DNA of 9,496 nt from Chloroflexota bacterium (GTDB lineage Bacteria; Chloroflexota; Dehalococcoidia; DSTF01; RBG-16-68-14), in assembly GCA_022573935.1 (NCBI GenBank), contig JACZTE010000020.1:1-9496 (forward strand), read 5' to 3'. Each line of letters opens with the position of its first letter. Within the stretch, counting starts at the first letter, position 1. Positions 1,821 to 7,848 of this stretch are shown piece after piece. The notes under the pieces were generated by a model. That model did not search any database, was not told where the DNA came from, and saw only the letters and a list, made by a program, of their open reading frames with translations. The position numbers were made by a program, and so were the translations under genes.

Positions 1821-1837
1821 GGAGGCCCTAGCCTCCT
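1820..1837. terminator. GC-rich hairpin between convergent genes, candidate bidirectional terminator
   Basis: AGGAGGC (1820-1826) and GCCTCCT (1831-1837) form a perfect 7-bp stem with a CCTA loop. The hairpin sits exactly where two transcription units meet. The plus-strand TGA (1818-1820) ends at its left foot and the minus-strand TAG of the thioredoxin gene lies in the loop (1830-1828). No T-run follows on either strand, so intrinsic termination would be weak. Attenuation or 3'-end protection is equally possible. Confidence 0.5.
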
Positions 1838-2565
1838 GAGTCGTCCTGCGTGGTGATGTCCCCCACCGGGCCGATGTCATCGCCCACTTCTTCGACCTGG
1901 CCCAGGGCGAGCTGAGCGAATCGGTCGAAGGCGCGGTAGGTGAGCTCACCACCCACCAACTCTCGGATGACCCCGTCCTTGTCGATCGCCAGCGTCACCG
2001 GCAGGCCGCGCACCCGATACGTATCGCCTATCTTACCGGAAGGGTCCATGACGCTCACGTAGGTCGCGCCAAGGCGGTCCAGGAAGCCACGGGCCGCTCC
2101 TACCCGCCCTTCTCCCCAATCGACGCCGAGGACTACCAGCCCCTCGCCCTCCCGCTCCTGGAACACTCGCTCCAGCGCGGGGATCTCAGCCTCGCAGCTA
2201 GTACACCAGGTCGCCCAGAAGTTGAGGATGACCGGCTGGCCCTGGAAGTCAGAGAGGCGCACCAGGTTGCCGTCCAGGTCCTGCCCCTCGAAGTTCGGCG
2301 CAAGCTGGCCCACCGCAGCGCTCACGCCCAGCCCCCGCGTCCGCTCGTTGCGCACGGCGTCGATGATCTTGCCGGGTTCGGCGCCACCGCCCAGCACCTG
2401 GACGAGGAAGACCGCCCCGGCGATGGCCGCCGCAGCGATGCCGAGGACGGCGAGGCGGCGAAGGCTAAAATAACCTCTGACCGTTCGCGCCGCCCGCTGT
2501 CCGGCGGACATCTCCTGGAGCCTACGCTCCTGACGCCTGCGCTTGCGCTCGCTTTTATTGCTCAT
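1828..2565 (-). CDS. membrane-anchored TlpA/ResA-like thioredoxin-fold protein
   Basis: I start this protein at the ATG at 2565, giving 245 residues, because the longer frame would run through the end of the upstream gene, whose TGA lies four bases before this ATG. The N-terminus is very basic (residues 4-37), followed by one hydrophobic helix at about 38-57, so the rest should face the extracytoplasmic side as a signal-anchored domain. The AhpC/TSA-thioredoxin domain covers about 84-222. It has the N-F-W-A-T-W-C-T-S-C-E-A-E-I-P active site (Cys121, Cys124) and a G-L-P-V-T cis-proline near residue 189. The C-terminal 20 residues are acidic and probably disordered. Family members reduce disulfides of exported proteins or cytochrome apoproteins. 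As the last gene of the metal/thiol operon, it may keep the cysteines of the CIPC-motif membrane proteins reduced, which is inference. Confidence 0.88.
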   Translation of the reverse strand: MSNKSERKRRRQERRLQEMSAGQRAARTVRGYFSLRRLAVLGIAAAAIAGAVFLVQVLGGGAEPGKIIDAVRNERTRGLGVSAAVGQLAPNFEGQDLDGNLVRLSDFQGQPVILNFWATWCTSCEAEIPALERVFQEREGEGLVVLGVDWGEGRVGAARGFLDRLGATYVSVMDPSGKIGDTYRVRGLPVTLAIDKDGVIRELVGGELTYRAFDRFAQLALGQVEEVGDDIGPVGDITTQDDSGG

Positions 2566-2569
2566 CTCA

Positions 2570-2860
2570 TCAACGGTCTGACTCGCTGAGCCGTGCTTTG
2601 GGCGTGAGGCTCCCAGACCCAGCTTCATCCACCTCACACGCAGCCGCGTTTTCCCGCCGGACGTAGATGAAACCGGCCGCCGCCACGAAGGCCACAGCGA
2701 CTATGGTGCCCGCTGCCAGCACAAAGCTATTGTCCGTGAACCACGCGCCGAACGCCGAGAAGGCGCCTGCCCCGATGCCTGCAGCCAGCAGCACCGGAAT
2801 GAGACACGGAATGCAGATTGCCAGCGGGATGATCCCGGCAAGCACTCTAGATCGCCTCAT
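2570..2860 (-). CDS. MerT/MerF-like small membrane protein, two transmembrane helices
   Basis: A 96-residue protein with two hydrophobic stretches, at about residues 7-30 and 46-66, joined by a short loop (A-W-F-T-D-N). The first helix carries C-I-P-C (Cys16, Cys19), and a third cysteine (Cys75) lies just after the second helix, followed by a polar tail. Size, two-helix layout and a cysteine pair in helix 1 match the MerF/MerT class of mercuric ion importers, which pass Hg(II) between cysteine pairs across the inner membrane. The C-x2-C spacing differs from the vicinal CC of classical MerT/MerF, so the substrate may be another soft metal or not a metal at all. ATG 2860 is preceded by a strong GAGGAGG site. 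The gene is followed four bases later by the thioredoxin gene, so the two are probably co-translated. Confidence 0.65.
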   Translation of the reverse strand: MRRSRVLAGIIPLAICIPCLIPVLLAAGIGAGAFSAFGAWFTDNSFVLAAGTIVAVAFVAAAGFIYVRRENAAACEVDEAGSGSLTPKARLSESDR

Positions 2861-2870
2861 GTGTACCTCC

Positions 2871-2945
2871 TCATTCCGCGCAACCGCTCATCACGCGGGT
2901 ATCGCAGACGAACGACTGCGCCGCAGGCTTGATCTCCGAGCTCAT
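2871..2945 (-). other. 24-codon ORF overlapping the stop of the CopZ-like gene; possible relic
   Basis: The ATG at 2945 overlaps the TGA of the upstream CopZ-like gene (ATGA junction), the usual arrangement for coupled translation. The frame encodes 24 residues with two cysteines (F-V-C-D-T-R-V-M-S-G-C-A-E) and G or C at most third codon positions. It stops at TGA 2873-2871, next to the ribosome site of the membrane-protein gene. It may be a genuine micropeptide or the N-terminal stub of a longer gene. The F-V-C-D segment reminds me of the start of an unnamed small cysteine protein seen in mer-like operons, but this is a recollection I cannot verify. Confidence 0.35.
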
Positions 2946-3466
2946 TGTGGGGAAGACATGGACTGTGTTGATACGGAACCCACCCTCTCGGCCCTATTAA
3001 TCACAGCGCGTACGTTCCCAAGGCAGCAGCTGCCCTGCGGATTGCGTACGTCACAGGCGCACTGTCCGGCCTGGATTCCGGCGGTAATCGCCGCTACTAC
3101 GGTGCTGCGGCCTGTTTTGGCGAGCTCTTTCTTGATGCTCTCTGGGGTGTGCCGGAAACAATAGCAGACGAACACGCTATCGTCATCCGGATGCTTGTTG
3201 TGGACGTGCTCCCGGATGTCACGCTCCAAGAACTGCTGCTCGCCGTCCGCGCTGTAATACACGGTGGGACACTCTGGCGTGCGACAGAAGCGGTATTCCA
3301 CCGCGCGCAATTCGGTCAACGAGTGCGCGAGCAGCGCCTTGAGGGTTAATGAGTCGACCGCTTTCCCCGGTCGCGCGCAGCCCGGGCACGCCATGCTCGG
3401 TTCTGCGGTGGCAGGCTCGCAGACTGCGGTACCAGCTTCGGGGGGACACTCACATTTCTCAGCCAT
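2942..3466 (-). CDS. CopZ N-terminal-like iron-sulfur/zinc protein without a heavy-metal-associated domain
   Basis: A 174-residue cysteine-rich cytoplasmic protein. The start is ATG 3466, with an AAAGGA site about 10 bases upstream; a TTG one codon earlier also lies in frame but is less likely. Residues 1-26 hold C5, C7 and C16. A zinc-ribbon-like part has C-P-G-C (27-30) and C61/C66. The second half has C-Y-C (101-103), C-A-C (136-138) and C-C (147-148), the arrangement expected for a BFD-like [2Fe-2S] cluster. This matches the N-terminal half of Archaeoglobus CopZ, which binds zinc and a [2Fe-2S] cluster and is followed there by a copper-chaperone HMA domain. Here the protein ends soon after the cluster region, so no HMA domain is present. 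Such stand-alone forms are found near MerT-like genes. Role in this operon (inference): redox or metal chaperone for the membrane proteins encoded next to it. Confidence 0.75.
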   Translation of the reverse strand: MAEKCECPPEAGTAVCEPATAEPSMACPGCARPGKAVDSLTLKALLAHSLTELRAVEYRFCRTPECPTVYYSADGEQQFLERDIREHVHNKHPDDDSVFVCYCFRHTPESIKKELAKTGRSTVVAAITAGIQAGQCACDVRNPQGSCCLGNVRAVINRAERVGSVSTQSMSSPQ

Positions 3467-3541
3467 CAAGAATCAATCCTTTCATTCAGCATTGTCCAGT
3501 GTCGCGGTGGCCTTTCCTTTGAGTACCTGTTGATACTGGCC

Positions 3542-3673
3542 TCAAACCGCTCCAGGGATTGGGGCCCATCGCCACTGCGCACCGAATCCGACACACGCAG
3601 GTGCCGTCAGCAGCACGGGAACAAAGCAGGGGATGCAGAGCCCCAGCCCCACGATTACTACAGGTATTCTCAT
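3542..3673 (-). CDS. short CIPC-motif membrane peptide, 43 aa, probably a truncated paralogue
   Basis: The ATG at 3673 shares its A with the TAA stop of the rhodanese-CBS gene (TAATG), a strong sign of coupled translation. The 43 residues form one hydrophobic helix with C-I-P-C-F-V-P-V-L-L. This aligns with C-I-P-C-L-I-P-V-L-L of the MerT/MerF-like protein encoded at 2570-2860, and the two genes are also similar at the DNA level there. The second helix is missing: after residue 30 the sequence is W-R-W-A-P-I-P-G-A-V and then TGA 3544-3542. The peptide is therefore either a minimal single-helix version or what remains after a deletion or frameshift. The following 75 bases are open in two frames but form no recognisable domain, and they carry the ribosome site of the next gene. 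Confidence 0.5.
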   Translation of the reverse strand: MRIPVVIVGLGLCIPCFVPVLLTAPACVGFGAQWRWAPIPGAV

Positions 3674-4371
3674 TATTCCGAATTCATCTTTCTGAGCTTC
3701 TCCTCCGCGTCCTTGCGGTACAAGATGCCAAGGAGCCGGCCCGTGGATGTGGTCACCAGCATGCTGCCTACTTTCCTCGCTCCCATATGTTCCGTCAACT
3801 CTCGGAGCGCGTCATCTGGCCGGGTCGTCGTCGGGCCGATCTCCATGACCGACTCGATGGAGGCGTCGGGGTCGGCGTTGAAGGCAGCCCCCCTGAGACG
3901 GCCAATCACGACGCCCTCCTCACTGGTCACAATGCACACGTTCTGGCCCGCTGCCTTGACACGCTCCACAACGTCACCCAGACGCTCGGTCAGGCGGCAG
4001 GTCGGCACGTCTCGCTGAACCGCGTCACCTGCCCGAAGAACCCCAGCGAGCTGCCCCTCGGTCGGCAGCCCGTTCGCCGTCCAGTCTGCCATCCCTGTGA
4101 CGTAGTCGAAGACCTGTGTGAAGCCTAGACTTTCGAGCCGACACGCGGCCCGTGGACTCATGTCTCACTGGTTGTCCGCTCAGTAGACGACGACCGGCCG
4201 GCTCCGCTCCAGGGCGCGACCCGCGGTCGTTGCGTCGAGCGTCTTGAGCGGGAGGTTGATCGCCCCGGCGATGTGCTCCTCCTGGAACTCCTGGTCGGGA
4301 CGCACGTCGATGAGCTGAGCTCCCTCAGCGACTAGCTCTTGCACTGTATCCCTGGAAATGTCGGTGGGCAT
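3673..4371 (-). CDS. rhodanese-CBS protein with two in-frame UGA codons, probable double selenoprotein
   Basis: Read as one frame from ATG 4371 (GGAGG site 5 bases upstream) to TAA 3675-3673, this gives 232 residues with TGA at codon 64 (4182-4180) and codon 69 (4167-4165). Residues 1-106 are a rhodanese domain: I-D-V-R-P, the H-I-A-G-A-I-N-L-P-L stretch (33-42), R-P-V-V-V-Y, then UGA-A-D-N-Q-UGA-D-M-S-P-R-A-A and R-L-E-S-L-G-F. In relatives as I recall them, the loop is C-x4-C-D-x-S-x-R-A-A, so both UGAs replace conserved cysteines, the first being the sulfur-carrying catalytic residue. Residues about 115-232 form a CBS-domain pair. If the UGAs stopped translation, the first product would end one residue before its catalytic position. 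The frame is otherwise undamaged, which argues against a pseudogene. An independent CBS protein from ATG 4161 is possible but lacks a good ribosome site. The gene starts 13 bases after the ArsR-type regulator. Confidence 0.75.
4134..4152 (-). promoter_or_regulatory. candidate bacterial SECIS stem-loop
   Basis: On the coding strand CGGGCCG (4152-4146) pairs with CGGCTCG (4140-4134), giving 7 bp with one G-U pair and a five-base loop CGUGU. The first loop G (4144) lies 20 bases after the second UGA and 35 bases after the first. As I recall the bacterial SECIS model, the apical-loop G is expected about 16-37 bases after the UGA and near the start of a small loop, with GU in the loop. One hairpin could therefore serve both UGAs. 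Short GC stems are common in such DNA, so on its own this would be weak; the support is its position behind two UGAs that replace cysteines. Confidence 0.45.
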
Positions 4372-4384
4372 CTCACCTCCGCTC

Positions 4385-4741
4385 TTACGCGGTCTCCTCG
4401 TTCAGGCGCAGACAAGAGGCAACCGCTTCCGCGTTCTCTGCCAAGATCGTGCGTGCGAGCCGCATGAGCTCCGACACGCGCGGATCGGTGATGCGATAGT
4501 AGACGAACTTGCCCTCTCGACGGGTGCCGATATAGCCGCACCAACGCAGGCACGCGAGGTGGCTGCTCACCCGCGCCTGCGGCACACCCAGGCCGTGCAC
4601 TAGCTCAGTAACGTTCTGCTCTCCATCGAGCAGCAGCTCGATGATACGAACGCGGGTGGGGTCTGAGAGGACCTGAAAGAAGCGAGTGACAAGGTCTATC
4701 TCCAGATCGTACTCAATGGCGGGACTCGTCGAAGTGATCAT
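4385..4741 (-). CDS. ArsR/SmtB-family metal-sensing repressor, CmtR-like
   Basis: A 118-residue winged-helix protein of normal length for the family. It has L-S-D-P-T-R-V-R-I-I-E-L-L near residues 25-37, a recognition-helix region V-P-Q-A-R-V-S-S-H-L (53-62), and a wing R-R-E-G-K-F-V-Y-Y-R (74-83). The helix just after H61-L62 carries C64 and C68 (A-C-L-R-W-C-G), and a third cysteine, C110, lies near the C-terminus. This three-cysteine pattern corresponds in spacing to C57, C61 and C102 of mycobacterial CmtR, which binds Cd(II)/Pb(II) through these thiolates. A soft thiophilic metal is therefore the likely inducer. Members repress their own operon and release DNA when metal binds. It is the first gene of the operon, its ATG lies inside a dyad overlapping the promoter, and no ribosome site precedes it, so it may be translated from a leaderless or nearly leaderless mRNA. 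Confidence 0.88.
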   Translation of the reverse strand: MITSTSPAIEYDLEIDLVTRFFQVLSDPTRVRIIELLLDGEQNVTELVHGLGVPQARVSSHLACLRWCGYIGTRREGKFVYYRITDPRVSELMRLARTILAENAEAVASCLRLNEETA

Positions 4742-4767
4742 ATCTGATTAGAAAGATATATTATCAC
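4734..4767. promoter_or_regulatory. candidate operator dyad of the ArsR-type regulator
   Basis: ATATCT (4740-4745) and AGATAT (4754-4759) form an inverted repeat with an 8-base AT-rich centre. It is flanked by GTGAT (4734-4738) and ATCAC (4763-4767), which are also inverted but not quite symmetric. An AT-rich interrupted dyad of this size is typical of ArsR/SmtB operators. It covers the -10 region and the start codon of the regulator gene, so binding would block its own transcription. Confidence 0.6.
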
Positions 4768-4781
4768 TCCAGGATTGTCAA
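4753..4781 (-). promoter_or_regulatory. sigma-70-type promoter of the metal/rhodanese operon
   Basis: On the minus strand a perfect TTGACA (4781-4776) is followed after 17 bases by TATCTT (4758-4753); an overlapping TATATC with a 15-base spacer is an alternative. Transcription would begin near 4746-4748, only about five to seven bases before the ATG at 4741, predicting a nearly leaderless mRNA. The -10 region overlaps the operator dyad. Confidence 0.6.
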
Positions 4782-4827
4782 GCGGGCTGATAGTTTAGGC
4801 ATCGGCACCCGTCTAGCCGGCCCGTGA

Positions 4828-4833
4828 TATAAT
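4828..4833 (+). promoter_or_regulatory. ppdK: -10 box for ppdK
   Basis: A perfect TATAAT stands in the divergent intergenic region, 48 bases before the ppdK start. No recognisable -35 hexamer lies at 16-19 bases upstream, so activity may depend on an activator or on the TG at 4825-4826 (an imperfectly spaced extended -10). Transcription would start near 4840. Confidence 0.45.
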
Positions 4834-4843
4834 AGCCCTCGCT

Positions 4844-4866
4844 GCCGCTCCTCACATCGGAGCGGC
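4844..4866 (+). promoter_or_regulatory. 5'-leader hairpin upstream of the ppdK ribosome site
   Basis: GCCGCTCC (4844-4851) and GGAGCGGC (4859-4866) form a perfect 8-bp stem with a 7-base loop, just after the expected transcription start. It ends three bases before the GGAGGAG ribosome site (4869-4875). It could stabilise the mRNA end or limit ribosome access. No known riboswitch consensus is apparent in such a short leader. Confidence 0.4.
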
Positions 4867-4881
4867 GCGGAGGAGTCACGG

Positions 4882-7848
4882 ATGACGGATCGCAAGTACG
4901 TCTACCTCTTCGCCGAGGGCGACAAGGACCAGCGTGACCTGCTGGGCGGCAAGGGCGCGAACCTGGCCGAGATGACCAACCTCGGCCTGCGCGTGCCCCC
5001 CGGCTTCACCATCACCACCGAAGCCTGCAACGCCTACCTCGCGGGCGAGAAGGCGCTGCCCGAGGGCCTGATGGACCAGGTGCGAACGGCCCTCCGTCGC
5101 GTCGAAGAGGAGACCGGCAAGCGCTTCGGCGACGCAGAGCGGCCGCTGCTGCTGTCGGTGCGCTCCGGCGCGAAGGTCTCCATGCCGGGCATGATGGACA
5201 CCGTGCTCGACCTCGGCCTCAACCCCACCACGCTCGAAGGGCTGATCGCCGCCACCGGAGACGCGCGCTTCGGCTACGATTCCTGGCGGCGCTTCATCAT
5301 GATGTTCGGCGACATCGTCCTCGAGATCGACCGCCGCAAGTTCGACGCGATCTACGACGAGGCGAAGGCGCAGGCCGGCGTGCAGGACGACGCGGAGCTG
5401 CCCGCCGACGCGGTGCGCGAGGTGGCCGAGCGCTTTCGCGAGCTGGTCAAGCAGGAGACGGGCTCGCCGTTCCCCGACGAGCCGCTCCAACAGCTCGATC
5501 TGGCGATCAAGGCAGTCTTCAACTCGTGGGGCAACGAGCGCGCGGTCTACTACCGCCGGATCGAGAAGATCCCGGACGACCTGGGCACGGCGGTCAACGT
5601 CCAGGCGATGGTCTTCGGCAACCTGGGCGAGGACTCAGGCTCCGGCGTCGCCTTCACCCGCGACCCCGGCACCGGCGAACGCACCATCTGGGGCGAGTAC
5701 CTGGTCAACGCCCAGGGCGAGGACGTGGTCGCCGGCATCCGCACGCCGATACCCATCGCCGCCCTCAAAGAGCGCGAGCCCTCCCTCTACGACGAGTTCG
5801 CCGCCATCTCCGAAAAGCTGGAGCAGCACTTCCGCGACGCGATGGACATCGAATTCACCGTCGAGCAGGGGAAGCTCTACATCCTCCAATGCCGCGTCGG
5901 CAAGCGGACGACGCGAGCCGCCGTCACCACCGCCGTCGATATGGTCCACGAAGGGCTGATCAGCAAAGAGGAGGCGATTCTGCGCGTCGCCCCGCACCGC
6001 CTCGACGAGCTGCTCCACCCGCAGCTCGACCCTCGCGTCGAGACCGCGTCGCTGTCGAAAGCGGGCGCCGATCTCGCGCCGGCGCTGGAATCGCAGGCGG
6101 AGATGGTCTTCCTACGCGACGGCGTCGTCGCCACGCTACGCAACGACGAGTGGCGCTCGCTGGACGAAAGAGAGCGAGCGTCGCTGCTGCGCGAGGTACG
6201 GTTCTTGGAGGTGGCGCGCGGGCTACCCGCGTCGCCGGGGGCCGCGGCAGGCGTCGCGGTGTTCGACCCCGATACGGCGGCGAAGCTGGGCCGTGGAGGT
6301 GAAGGCCGCGACGTGATCCTGGTGCGCCAGGAGACGTCGCCGGACGACATCCATGGCATGCAGGCATCGCGGGGCGTGCTCACGGAGCGCGGCGGCATGT
6401 CGAGCCACGCCGCGCTCGTCGCCCGCGGCTTCGGCATCCCTTGCGTCGCCGGCTGCGAAGCGATCGACGTGGACGAAGACGCCCGCTCGATGGAAGCGGG
6501 CGGGCTCGCGATCGCCGACGGCCAGACGATCACCATCGACGGCTCCGACGGCCGCGTGCTGCTCGGCCACATCCCATCGGTAGAGGCAGAGTTCTTCCCA
6601 GAGCTCACCGAGTTTCTCTCCTGGGCAGACGAGATTCGCCGCCTCGGCGTGCGCACCAACGCCGATACGCCCAACGACGCCGCCAAGGCGATCGAGTTCG
6701 GCGCGGAAGGGATCGGCCTCTGCCGCACGGAGCACATGTTCCTCGAACCAGACCGCCTGCCTGTCGTGCGCGAGATGATCCTCGCGGCGGCCGAGACGAA
6801 GGCGCTGGAGGCCGACGTCGCGGCGGTCGAAGCTGAGCTGGCGGCGGCGGGCGACGAGAAGCGGCAGCGTCCGCTCGAAGACCGGCTCTCGACGCTGCGC
6901 GGCCGGCTGGAGGGCCCGATGGGCAAGTACCGCGGCTCGCTGGAGCGGCTGCTGCCCATGCAGCAGGGCGACTTCGAGGCGATCTTCCGCGTGATGGGCG
7001 AGCGGCCGGTCACGATCCGCCTCATCGACCCGCCGATGCACGAGTTCCTGCCCGACCACGACGAGCTGCTCGAATCGGTGATCCGGCTGCGCATCGAGGC
7101 GCCCGATTCGCCCGAGCTACGGGCGAAGGAGTCGATGCTCCGCCAGGTCGAGGCGCTGCGCGAAGTCAACCCAATGCTCGGCCTGCGCGGCTGCCGGTTG
7201 GGCATCCTCTACCCGGAGGTGAACGAGATGCAGGTGCGGGCGATCTTCCGCGCCGCGGCGACCGTGGCCAAGGAGGGCGTGCCGGTGCATCCGGAGGTGA
7301 TGATCCCGCTCGTCGGCTTCGAGAGCGAGCTCCGGATGCTGCGAGCGCTGCTCGAACGCGTCGCCCGCGAGACGATGCGGGAGGCGGGCACGGAGGTGCC
7401 CTACCTCTTCGGCACGATGATCGAGCTGCCACGCGCCGCCCTCACGGCGGGCGAGATCGCCAACGACGCCGAGTTCTTCTCGTTCGGCACGAACGACCTC
7501 ACCCAAACCACGCTCGGCTTCAGCCGCGACGACGCCGAAGCCCATTTCCTCACCCGCTACCTGGAGCTGGGCCTCCTGGACGACAACCCGTTCGAGACGA
7601 TCGACCAGGTCGGCGTCGGCGCGCTCGTGCGCATGGCGGTAGCGGCGGGCCGGAAGGCGCGGCCCGACCTGAAGCTGGGCATCTGCGGCGAGCACGGCGG
7701 CGACCCGCGCTCCGTCGACTTCTTCCACCGGGCGGGGCTGGACTACGTGAGCTGCTCGCCCTACCGCGTGCCCATCGCCCGCCTCGCGGCGGCCCACGCC
7801 GCCCTGGCGGAGCGAACGCCGACTCGCCTCGTAGGGACAGAGCGTTAG
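4882..7848 (+). CDS. ppdK: pyruvate, phosphate dikinase
   Basis: A 988-residue enzyme that interconverts pyruvate, ATP and Pi with PEP, AMP and PPi in the cytoplasm. The N-terminal ATP-grasp part has L-L-G-G-K-G-A-N-L-A-E-M (20-31), S-V-R-S-G-A-K-V-S-M-P-G-M-M-D-T-V (92-108) and I-L-Q-C-R-V-G-K-R-T (334-343). The swivelling phosphohistidine domain has L-P-A-S-P-G-A-A-A-G (448-457) and E-R-G-G-M-S-S-H-A-A with catalytic His509. The C-terminal PEP/pyruvate TIM barrel has G-L-C-R-T-E-H-M-F (612-620), F-F-S-F-G-T-N-D-L-T-Q-T-T-L-G (865-879) and G-I-C-G-E-H-G-G-D-P (933-942) with catalytic Cys935. It is about 110 residues longer than typical bacterial enzymes of about 875; the extra length lies mainly near residues 390-440 and 636-685. 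Ser507 replaces the Thr that regulatory kinases phosphorylate in plants and many bacteria. The start is set by GGAGGAG. The last codons lie within a repeated palindrome. Confidence 0.97.
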   Translation: MTDRKYVYLFAEGDKDQRDLLGGKGANLAEMTNLGLRVPPGFTITTEACNAYLAGEKALPEGLMDQVRTALRRVEEETGKRFGDAERPLLLSVRSGAKVSMPGMMDTVLDLGLNPTTLEGLIAATGDARFGYDSWRRFIMMFGDIVLEIDRRKFDAIYDEAKAQAGVQDDAELPADAVREVAERFRELVKQETGSPFPDEPLQQLDLAIKAVFNSWGNERAVYYRRIEKIPDDLGTAVNVQAMVFGNLGEDSGSGVAFTRDPGTGERTIWGEYLVNAQGEDVVAGIRTPIPIAALKEREPSLYDEFAAISEKLEQHFRDAMDIEFTVEQGKLYILQCRVGKRTTRAAVTTAVDMVHEGLISKEEAILRVAPHRLDELLHPQLDPRVETASLSKAGADLAPALESQAEMVFLRDGVVATLRNDEWRSLDERERASLLREVRFLEVARGLPASPGAAAGVAVFDPDTAAKLGRGGEGRDVILVRQETSPDDIHGMQASRGVLTERGGMSSHAALVARGFGIPCVAGCEAIDVDEDARSMEAGGLAIADGQTITIDGSDGRVLLGHIPSVEAEFFPELTEFLSWADEIRRLGVRTNADTPNDAAKAIEFGAEGIGLCRTEHMFLEPDRLPVVREMILAAAETKALEADVAAVEAELAAAGDEKRQRPLEDRLSTLRGRLEGPMGKYRGSLERLLPMQQGDFEAIFRVMGERPVTIRLIDPPMHEFLPDHDELLESVIRLRIEAPDSPELRAKESMLRQVEALREVNPMLGLRGCRLGILYPEVNEMQVRAIFRAAATVAKEGVPVHPEVMIPLVGFESELRMLRALLERVARETMREAGTEVPYLFGTMIELPRAALTAGEIANDAEFFSFGTNDLTQTTLGFSRDDAEAHFLTRYLELGLLDDNPFETIDQVGVGALVRMAVAAGRKARPDLKLGICGEHGGDPRSVDFFHRAGLDYVSCSPYRVPIARLAAAHAALAERTPTRLVGTER

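Follow-up and report, generated by a model that had tools for sequence, protein, structure and literature searches.

Can two UGA codons lying five codons apart in one reading frame both be translated, and, if so, as what? The question is raised by a 9,496-nucleotide stretch of a Chloroflexota contig, referred to here as the window, in which the minus-strand frame from 4371 to 3673 spans 233 codons, with TGA64 and TGA69 as its only internal stops and TAA as its terminal one. A sequence-only reading of this DNA had proposed that selenocysteine (Sec) occupies both cysteine positions of a rhodanese active-site loop. Direct translation confirms the frame as open save for the two TGAs, and the U-x4-U spacing followed by D-M-S-P-R-A-A-C is as that reading gave it: the loop is U-ADNQ-U-DMSPRAAC, and the product with Sec at both UGAs has 232 residues. 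Very probably, the window encodes one rhodanese-CBS protein, with UGA64 as well as UGA69 decoded as Sec by means of SelB and tRNA-Sec. Features of the window are listed in Table 1.

Table 1. Features of the window, with positions counted from its first letter
Feature	Position	Strand	Basis
Rhodanese-CBS pair gene, very probably a selenoprotein gene	3673..4371	(-)	232 codons, TGA64 and TGA69 read through, then TAA; PF00581 8.6e-18, PF00571 1e-8; AlphaFold2 pLDDT 97.2
In-frame UGA codon 64, canonical catalytic Cys position, Cys in most relatives	4180..4182	(-)	Frame reading, comparison of loci
In-frame UGA codon 69, TGA in 80/80 related genome loci read	4165..4167	(-)	Frame reading, comparison of loci
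SECIS-like hairpin: 7 bp, 5-nt loop CGUGU, G at loop position 2	4134..4152	(-)	Folding and codon constraint; bSECIS model (PMC13188914)
ArsR/SmtB-type metalloregulator, first gene of putative operon	4385..4741	(-)	NF033788, 88.8 bits, cut-off 55
Short CIPC-motif ORF, overlaps selenoprotein stop, apparently truncated	3542..3673	(-)	Translation; no family
CopZ N-terminal-type iron-sulfur metallochaperone	2942..3469	(-)	PF18423; NF047645, 110.8 bits, cut-off 100
Apparent MerA C-terminus remnant, 33 residues	2874..2972	(-)	70% identity to L002 MerA, E 1e-6, small local database
MerT-like small membrane protein, CIPC motif	2570..2860	(-)	No family above cut-off
TlpA/ResA-type thioredoxin	1828..2637	(-)	Family match

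A predicted single protein and its relatives

The rhodanese domain (PF00581) passes its gathering score with 65.1 bits against a cut-off of 22.2, and one CBS module (PF00571) is recognized at 35.8 bits against 24, the second module having no sequence match. AlphaFold2, run on a 61-row alignment, returned a confident model (pTM 0.88): residues 60-63 form a strand, 64-70 a loop and 71-81 a helix, and two CBS-like modules lie beyond residue 115. As modeled, the protein consists of a single rhodanese domain and a CBS pair, and termination at UGA64 would break the rhodanese domain within its active-site loop. Alignment to solved rhodaneses shows the loop region to exceed theirs by about two residues. 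CBS-pair structures dominate the 50 best PDB rows of the structure search, including AcuB with AMP/ADP/ATP; the rhodanese BH2092 also occurs there, and no rhodanese-CBS template was found among these 50.

Scanning of genome contigs yielded 174 relatives, and 80 loci were retained and read. The second site is TGA in each of the 80, and the first is TGA in 27 and TGC or TGT in 53; the two TGAs are thus not a matter of chance, as the sequence-only reading had argued from the window alone. By sequence comparison, these genes very probably form a widespread rhodanese-CBS selenoprotein family with a C/U-x4-U loop, in which the near-invariant Sec is the second. The proposal of Sec at both loop positions is supported for the window itself, and across the family the first position is mostly Cys. 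Retained loci come from taxa that include Chloroflexi, Actinomycetota (Rubrobacter, Thermoleophilia), Acidobacteria and Dormibacteraeota MAGs. The closest, L001 from MAG B27T3L8, encodes a protein with 96% identity to that of the window.

Gene-calling programs divide these genes in two. Among 120 protein matches listed of 2029, 94 are shorter than 200 aa, and in 93 of these the first residue is the counterpart of Met71, directly past the second UGA. RefSeq isolate records list the gene as split or give one half of it, which is the division that had been predicted for conventional annotation. For example, plasmid-collection records of the isolates Pseudonocardia autotrophica and P. broussonetiae have TGC/TGA at the two sites and are each annotated as two proteins, and a Rubrobacter marinus plasmid record, also TGC/TGA, is annotated for the CBS part only, with an apparently frameshifted upstream part. 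The plasmid-collection record of Nonomuraea gerenzanensis (L124) has TGC/TGC.

Homologs were expected to have Cys or Sec at both positions, and they mostly do. The exceptions are a C-x4-S paralog and some of the 26 full-length proteins among the 120 listed; these 26 have at site 2 Cys (16), Trp (9, all from JGI) or Arg (1), and one of the 16 site-2-Cys proteins has Tyr at site 1. The Trp letters (P0026, P0030, P0033, P0054, P0056, P0063, P0065, P0077 and P0081) probably arose from translation of TGA with code 4 by the gene caller. A search of 198 Actinomycetota genomes for Cys/Cys DNA, with P0102 as query, met TGA inside 33 of 35 matched places. The sole unbroken match covering the loop was the C-x4-S paralog (L157), which is without the hairpin sequence described below; its genome (G383) also holds a Cys/Sec copy and tRNA-Sec. 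As a further oddity, the contig of L002 carries two copies of the selenoprotein gene (4641-4889 and 6001-6678), the upstream one retaining both TGAs and diverging abruptly past the loop, where it is truncated.

In a tree of 105 rows with six loop residues masked, Sec at site 1 calls for at least four changes on the quick tree, of which strongly supported branches force only one. The Cys/Cys state calls for six changes on that tree, at least three of them forced. Judged from these sequences, site-2 Sec looks old and the Cys/Cys forms look like repeated losses; site-1 Sec may have been gained once or a few times.

Selection was gauged by dN/dS from codon alignments of ten pairs of double-UGA (UU) sequences, window pairs included. 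Before UGA64, values were 0.11-0.28 in eight of the ten pairs, the other two having one substitution each, and after the hairpin they were 0.09-0.33 in all ten. For the window, the values before and after were 0.13/0.21 with L002, 0.27/0.14 with L003 and 0.28/0.16 with L004; against L001, the value after the hairpin was 0.30. Sequence on both sides of the UGAs is under purifying selection.

Hairpin, selenocysteine machinery and rival readings

Downstream of the loop codons lies a hairpin of -9.9 kcal/mol, whose own loop is separated from UGA69 by 19 nt and from UGA64 by 34 nt. The published bSECIS model, as given in a 2026 review (PMC13188914), allows a loop of 3-9 nt, a stem of 4-16 bp with G in the first two loop positions, a distance of 16-37 nt from the UGA and a folding energy of at most -7.5 kcal/mol; the window hairpin agrees with these constraints for both UGAs. 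A search with Rfam matched nothing in the window up to E = 1, so no library model stands behind the hairpin.

The case for it comes from codon choice and folding. Counted from codon 64, codons +10, +11, +12, +14 and +15 carry 0.7-1.6 bits of excess information relative to codon choice in the rest of the region, and the constrained codons read CGR GCC GCG nnn CGG CTC. Values are elevated at codons +8, +9 and +17 too (0.3-1.8 bits, with +17 resting on few sequences), and most others are below 0.4 bits; the constraint extends beyond the hairpin stem. Together, the constrained codons fold into the hairpin. Five of its pairs are complementary in each of the 96 Sec sequences, another in 95, another in 84 and the pair that closes the loop in 65; with so little variation in the stem, covariation between paired bases is minimal. 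These codon-choice and stem-pairing comparisons exclude the truncated second copy of L002; in stem pairing and in one of the codon-choice comparisons, identical blocks entered a single time. The best hairpin reached -7.5 kcal/mol or lower in 86% of UU sequences (n=28) and 99% of those with Cys at site 1 and UGA at site 2 (C/U; n=68), against 17% and 21% of the respective synonymous resamplings; about 14% of the 28 UU hairpins thus fall short of the limit. The controls were one C/C and one C/S DNA sequence, of which the C/C sequence (L124) retains a similar GC-rich stretch.

A single conserved hairpin would serve both UGAs, since its loop lies 19 and 34 nt away from them and the search for a separate SECIS for UGA64, made upstream of the main stem, yielded no other hairpin as well conserved. 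In that upstream position, the mean best energy was -2.45 kcal/mol in UU sequences vs -0.21 in synonymous resamplings, and 0.03 vs -0.24 in C/U sequences. The signal is weak and, by eye, mainly confined to a UMDGLU subgroup, and a SECIS of its own is not claimed for UGA64.

For the machinery itself, the genome of L001 (G001) and those of other carriers stand in for the window genome. SelB scores above its cut-off in 22 of 25 genomes of related loci, including G001 (322.5 bits against 242.25), and Rfam tRNA-Sec exceeds its threshold in 19 of the 25; ARAGORN assigned 18 of those 19 to tRNA-Sec, with a UCA anticodon, and the other to tRNA-Ser. Altogether, 23 of 25 double-UGA genomes have SelB and/or tRNA-Sec above cut-off, as the Sec reading had called for, and G022 and G678 have neither above cut-off. 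Searches of G001 for tRNA-Sec (Rfam, ARAGORN) and SelA found neither, probably owing to incompleteness of the MAG.

Among 301 Chloroflexota genomes, SelB was present in 234, tRNA-Sec in 226 and at least one of them in 246. The 31 genomes with a match at E up to 1e-20 (those of G183 and G188 being clearly partial, and that of G183 stopping short of the loop) had SelB in 29, tRNA-Sec in 27 and at least one in all 31, with one-sided Fisher p values of 0.0013 for either, 0.015 for SelB alone and 0.073 for tRNA-Sec alone. Among 346 Actinomycetota genomes, 42 were carriers, with TGA, which may include a terminal one, in 49 of 51 matched places, some of these being partial. Here, tRNA-Sec occurred in 26 of the 42 carriers vs 183 of 346 genomes overall, with no clear enrichment. 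SelB, checked in the 16 carriers lacking a tRNA-Sec, was above cut-off in 11, which brings those with either to 37 of 42; the carriers with neither are G489, G511 (a SelB-like fragment only), G578, G659 and G666. SelA, checked in 22 genomes lacking a tRNA-Sec call, was above cut-off in 13.

Other accounts of the two UGAs can be weighed against these results. The codons might end a short rhodanese fragment, with translation restarting at the AUG one codon past UGA69 to give a CBS protein. An ATG does follow Asp70 in 81 of 96 sequences, and the Pseudonocardia genes are annotated in RefSeq as divided in this manner. However, the other 15 have CTC, CTG, ATC or CTA at that codon, so reinitiation cannot be general; the cut would also cross the active-site loop of one domain that is predicted with confidence, relatives put Cys codons in the place of TGA, and synonymous constraint builds a SECIS-like hairpin. 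Split genes with reinitiation were rejected on these grounds as very improbable. An equally slim chance attaches to UGA standing for an ordinary amino acid (Cys or Trp) under an altered code or through a suppressor tRNA. The nine JGI proteins with Trp at site 2 would suit such decoding, but their letters are most simply put down to a code-4 gene caller, and carriers hold SelB and a tRNA-Sec with a UCA anticodon. Moreover, 38 of 69 family sequences themselves terminate in TGA (the 69 of 97 whose stop lies inside the stretch read), which means that UGA is recoded by context in the family. It is likewise the normal stop of window ORFs 732-1682, 2570-2860 and 2942-3469, an observation of the sequence-only reading that stands, and general reassignment was rejected.

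A subtler possibility is that only UGA69 is efficiently recoded and that UGA64 in the UU forms acts mostly as a stop, a selenium-dependent brake on expression. The hairpin lies near the far end of the range in the published model (34 nt within 16-37), and most relatives have Cys at site 1, as would fit a brake; on the other hand, UU is kept in 28 distinct sequences from several groups, with purifying selection past both UGAs, and another selenoprotein, TsoB, is tabulated in the review with two Sec in U-x4-U. This account is improbable, if a little less so than the two above. Finally, the frame could be a pseudogene with two nonsense mutations, or a product of sequencing or assembly error. A merA remnant and a truncated-looking MerT-like ORF do make the operon seem to be decaying, yet the window frame has no other disruption, the window pairs show constraint (0.30 past the hairpin with L001, 0.13-0.28 on both sides with L002-L004), and related loci with TGA at the same sites already refute this explanation for the family, leaving it a negligible probability for the window. 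Translation of both UGAs as Sec, by contrast, accords with the pairing of Cys and Sec at the loop positions, the conserved hairpin, the Sec machinery of carriers and the otherwise intact frame, and the double-selenocysteine proposal is supported.

A putative mer-type neighborhood

On the minus strand of the window, the ArsR gene is followed by the selenoprotein gene, the CIPC ORF (by eye like the N-terminus of the MerT-like neighbor), the CopZ-type Fe-S protein overlapping the MerA remnant, the MerT-like protein and the TlpA-type thioredoxin. The locus had been described as a metal-sensor operon. An ArsR regulator does adjoin the gene, but the surroundings as a whole look, from their sequences, like a decayed mercury-resistance-type operon; merA is a remnant and one MerT-like ORF appears truncated, hence the impression of decay. 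L001 retains, at 6696-6833, a 46-residue MerA N-terminus in place of the C-terminal piece of the window, and these different remnants suggest that merA was lost by different deletions in the two.

Across 92 loci (the window included), a panel applied within 6 kb found the DF family (NF049942) at 27, ArsR at 25, MerA-like proteins at 11 (a count that takes in remnants and weak matches), TlpA at nine and MerB-like proteins at four. Most of these loci show no MerA, and many are short, so that absence of a neighbor means little. Of the MerA-like proteins scored, those of L110, L113 and L117 exceed the cut-off and lie directly upstream; that of L002, also above it, adjoins the truncated copy, and that of L062 is below. 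Scores for three of the four MerB-like proteins all fall short of NCBIfam cut-offs, and that of L126 exceeds a Pfam cut-off. By a rough gene call, a same-strand neighbor lies upstream in 75 of 92 loci and downstream in 51 of 91. Seventy same-strand upstream ORFs (of 91 upstream references) were scanned, with matches to the DF family in 11, the MerR type in five, MerA-like proteins in four and ArsR HTH_5 in three.

Of the neighbors identified, the most frequent is the DF-family protein, which has about 100 residues and lies mostly upstream (e.g., L051 5200-5517, L126 3583-3933). Its CP motif has Cys where read, and NF049942 is a (seleno)protein family with a Sec member elsewhere. On the P. autotrophica plasmid (L126 2484-4992), a MerR-type regulator, an alkylmercury lyase-like protein, the DF protein and the split selenoprotein gene occur in succession.

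Known selenoproteins and a possible function

The U-x4-U motif is already known. The sequence-only reading had taken Sec rhodaneses to have usually one Sec; a precedent for two is TsoB, tabulated as UxxxxU with two Sec in the 2026 review (PMC13188914). TsoB (NF045694) likewise has a rhodanese domain, and residues 18-116 of the window protein match its model at 45.9 bits in the rhodanese part only, far from the cut-off of 805. The two differ in architecture, since the TsoB model has a length of 572 and is named a rhodanese/DsbD fusion, whereas in the window protein a CBS pair follows the rhodanese domain; they also differ in that most relatives of the latter have C-x4-U. The window ArsR protein falls below the cut-off of TsoR, an NCBIfam ArsR-type model (49.8 of 115 bits). 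Other Sec rhodaneses in the table of that review are form 1 (UxxS), form 2 (UxxG), form 3 (CxU, NF041203) and form 4 (UxxG), which share a rhodanese-like domain with Sec but are tabulated with one Sec each. The window protein scores 37.3 on NF041203 against a cut-off of 115. The UxxS form is a possible relative, as U69-D-M-S here also reads UxxS. Cys-only rhodanese-CBS proteins of Actinomycetota (P0102 from Carbonactinospora, L124 from Nonomuraea) share the architecture and loop but have Cys/Cys and no UGA.

No NCBIfam model of June 2026 exceeds its cut-off for the window protein, and a full-text literature search met no paper joining selenoprotein, rhodanese and CBS domain. The UxxxxU/CxxxxU motif was found in the 2026 review only, the main text of which does not contain "CBS", and the main text of the deep-Sep paper contains neither "rhodanese" nor "CBS". 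No description of the rhodanese-CBS family, its C/U-x4-U range or its spread was found in the searchable literature.

As to function, Cys or Sec64 could conceivably be the carrier of sulfane sulfur or a soft metal, with Sec69 of the same loop as its resolving or co-ligating partner. Such a pair would form a selenenylsulfide or, in the window protein, a diselenide. The CBS pair might gate the rhodanese loop through an adenine nucleotide, a suggestion that stems from the likeness of its fold to nucleotide-binding CBS proteins and, like the carrier role, is possible without being probable. The same can be said of a soft-metal, mercury or persulfide species as substrate, which is suggested by the ArsR, MerA, MerB-like, MerT-like and DF-family neighbors. 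Put together, one SECIS would direct two Sec 15 nt apart (34 and 19 nt from the hairpin) into a diselenol loop carrying mercury or sulfane sulfur under adenine-nucleotide-binding CBS control, in a family of Chloroflexota, Actinomycetota, Acidobacteriota and Dormibacterota MAGs that annotation has missed; this whole is tentative, and somewhat doubtful in its full extent.

The family would add a sizeable set of selenoproteins, with one or two Sec, to lineages such as Rubrobacter, Thermoleophilia and Chloroflexota, and its partly mer-type neighborhood would tie selenol chemistry to the handling of mercury. As the protein occurs naturally in C/U and U/U versions, with one conserved SECIS-like hairpin at two spacings, it offers a direct test of the reach of SelB from the hairpin and of whether one hairpin can serve two UGAs. 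The C/U members in cultured Pseudonocardia make experiments possible. Some other residues of the window protein are also well kept: Asp66, inside the loop, is conserved in 88 of 88 sequences, and of 105 wider relatives 91 retain Cys125 and 77 retain Cys146, possible extra ligands or redox partners.
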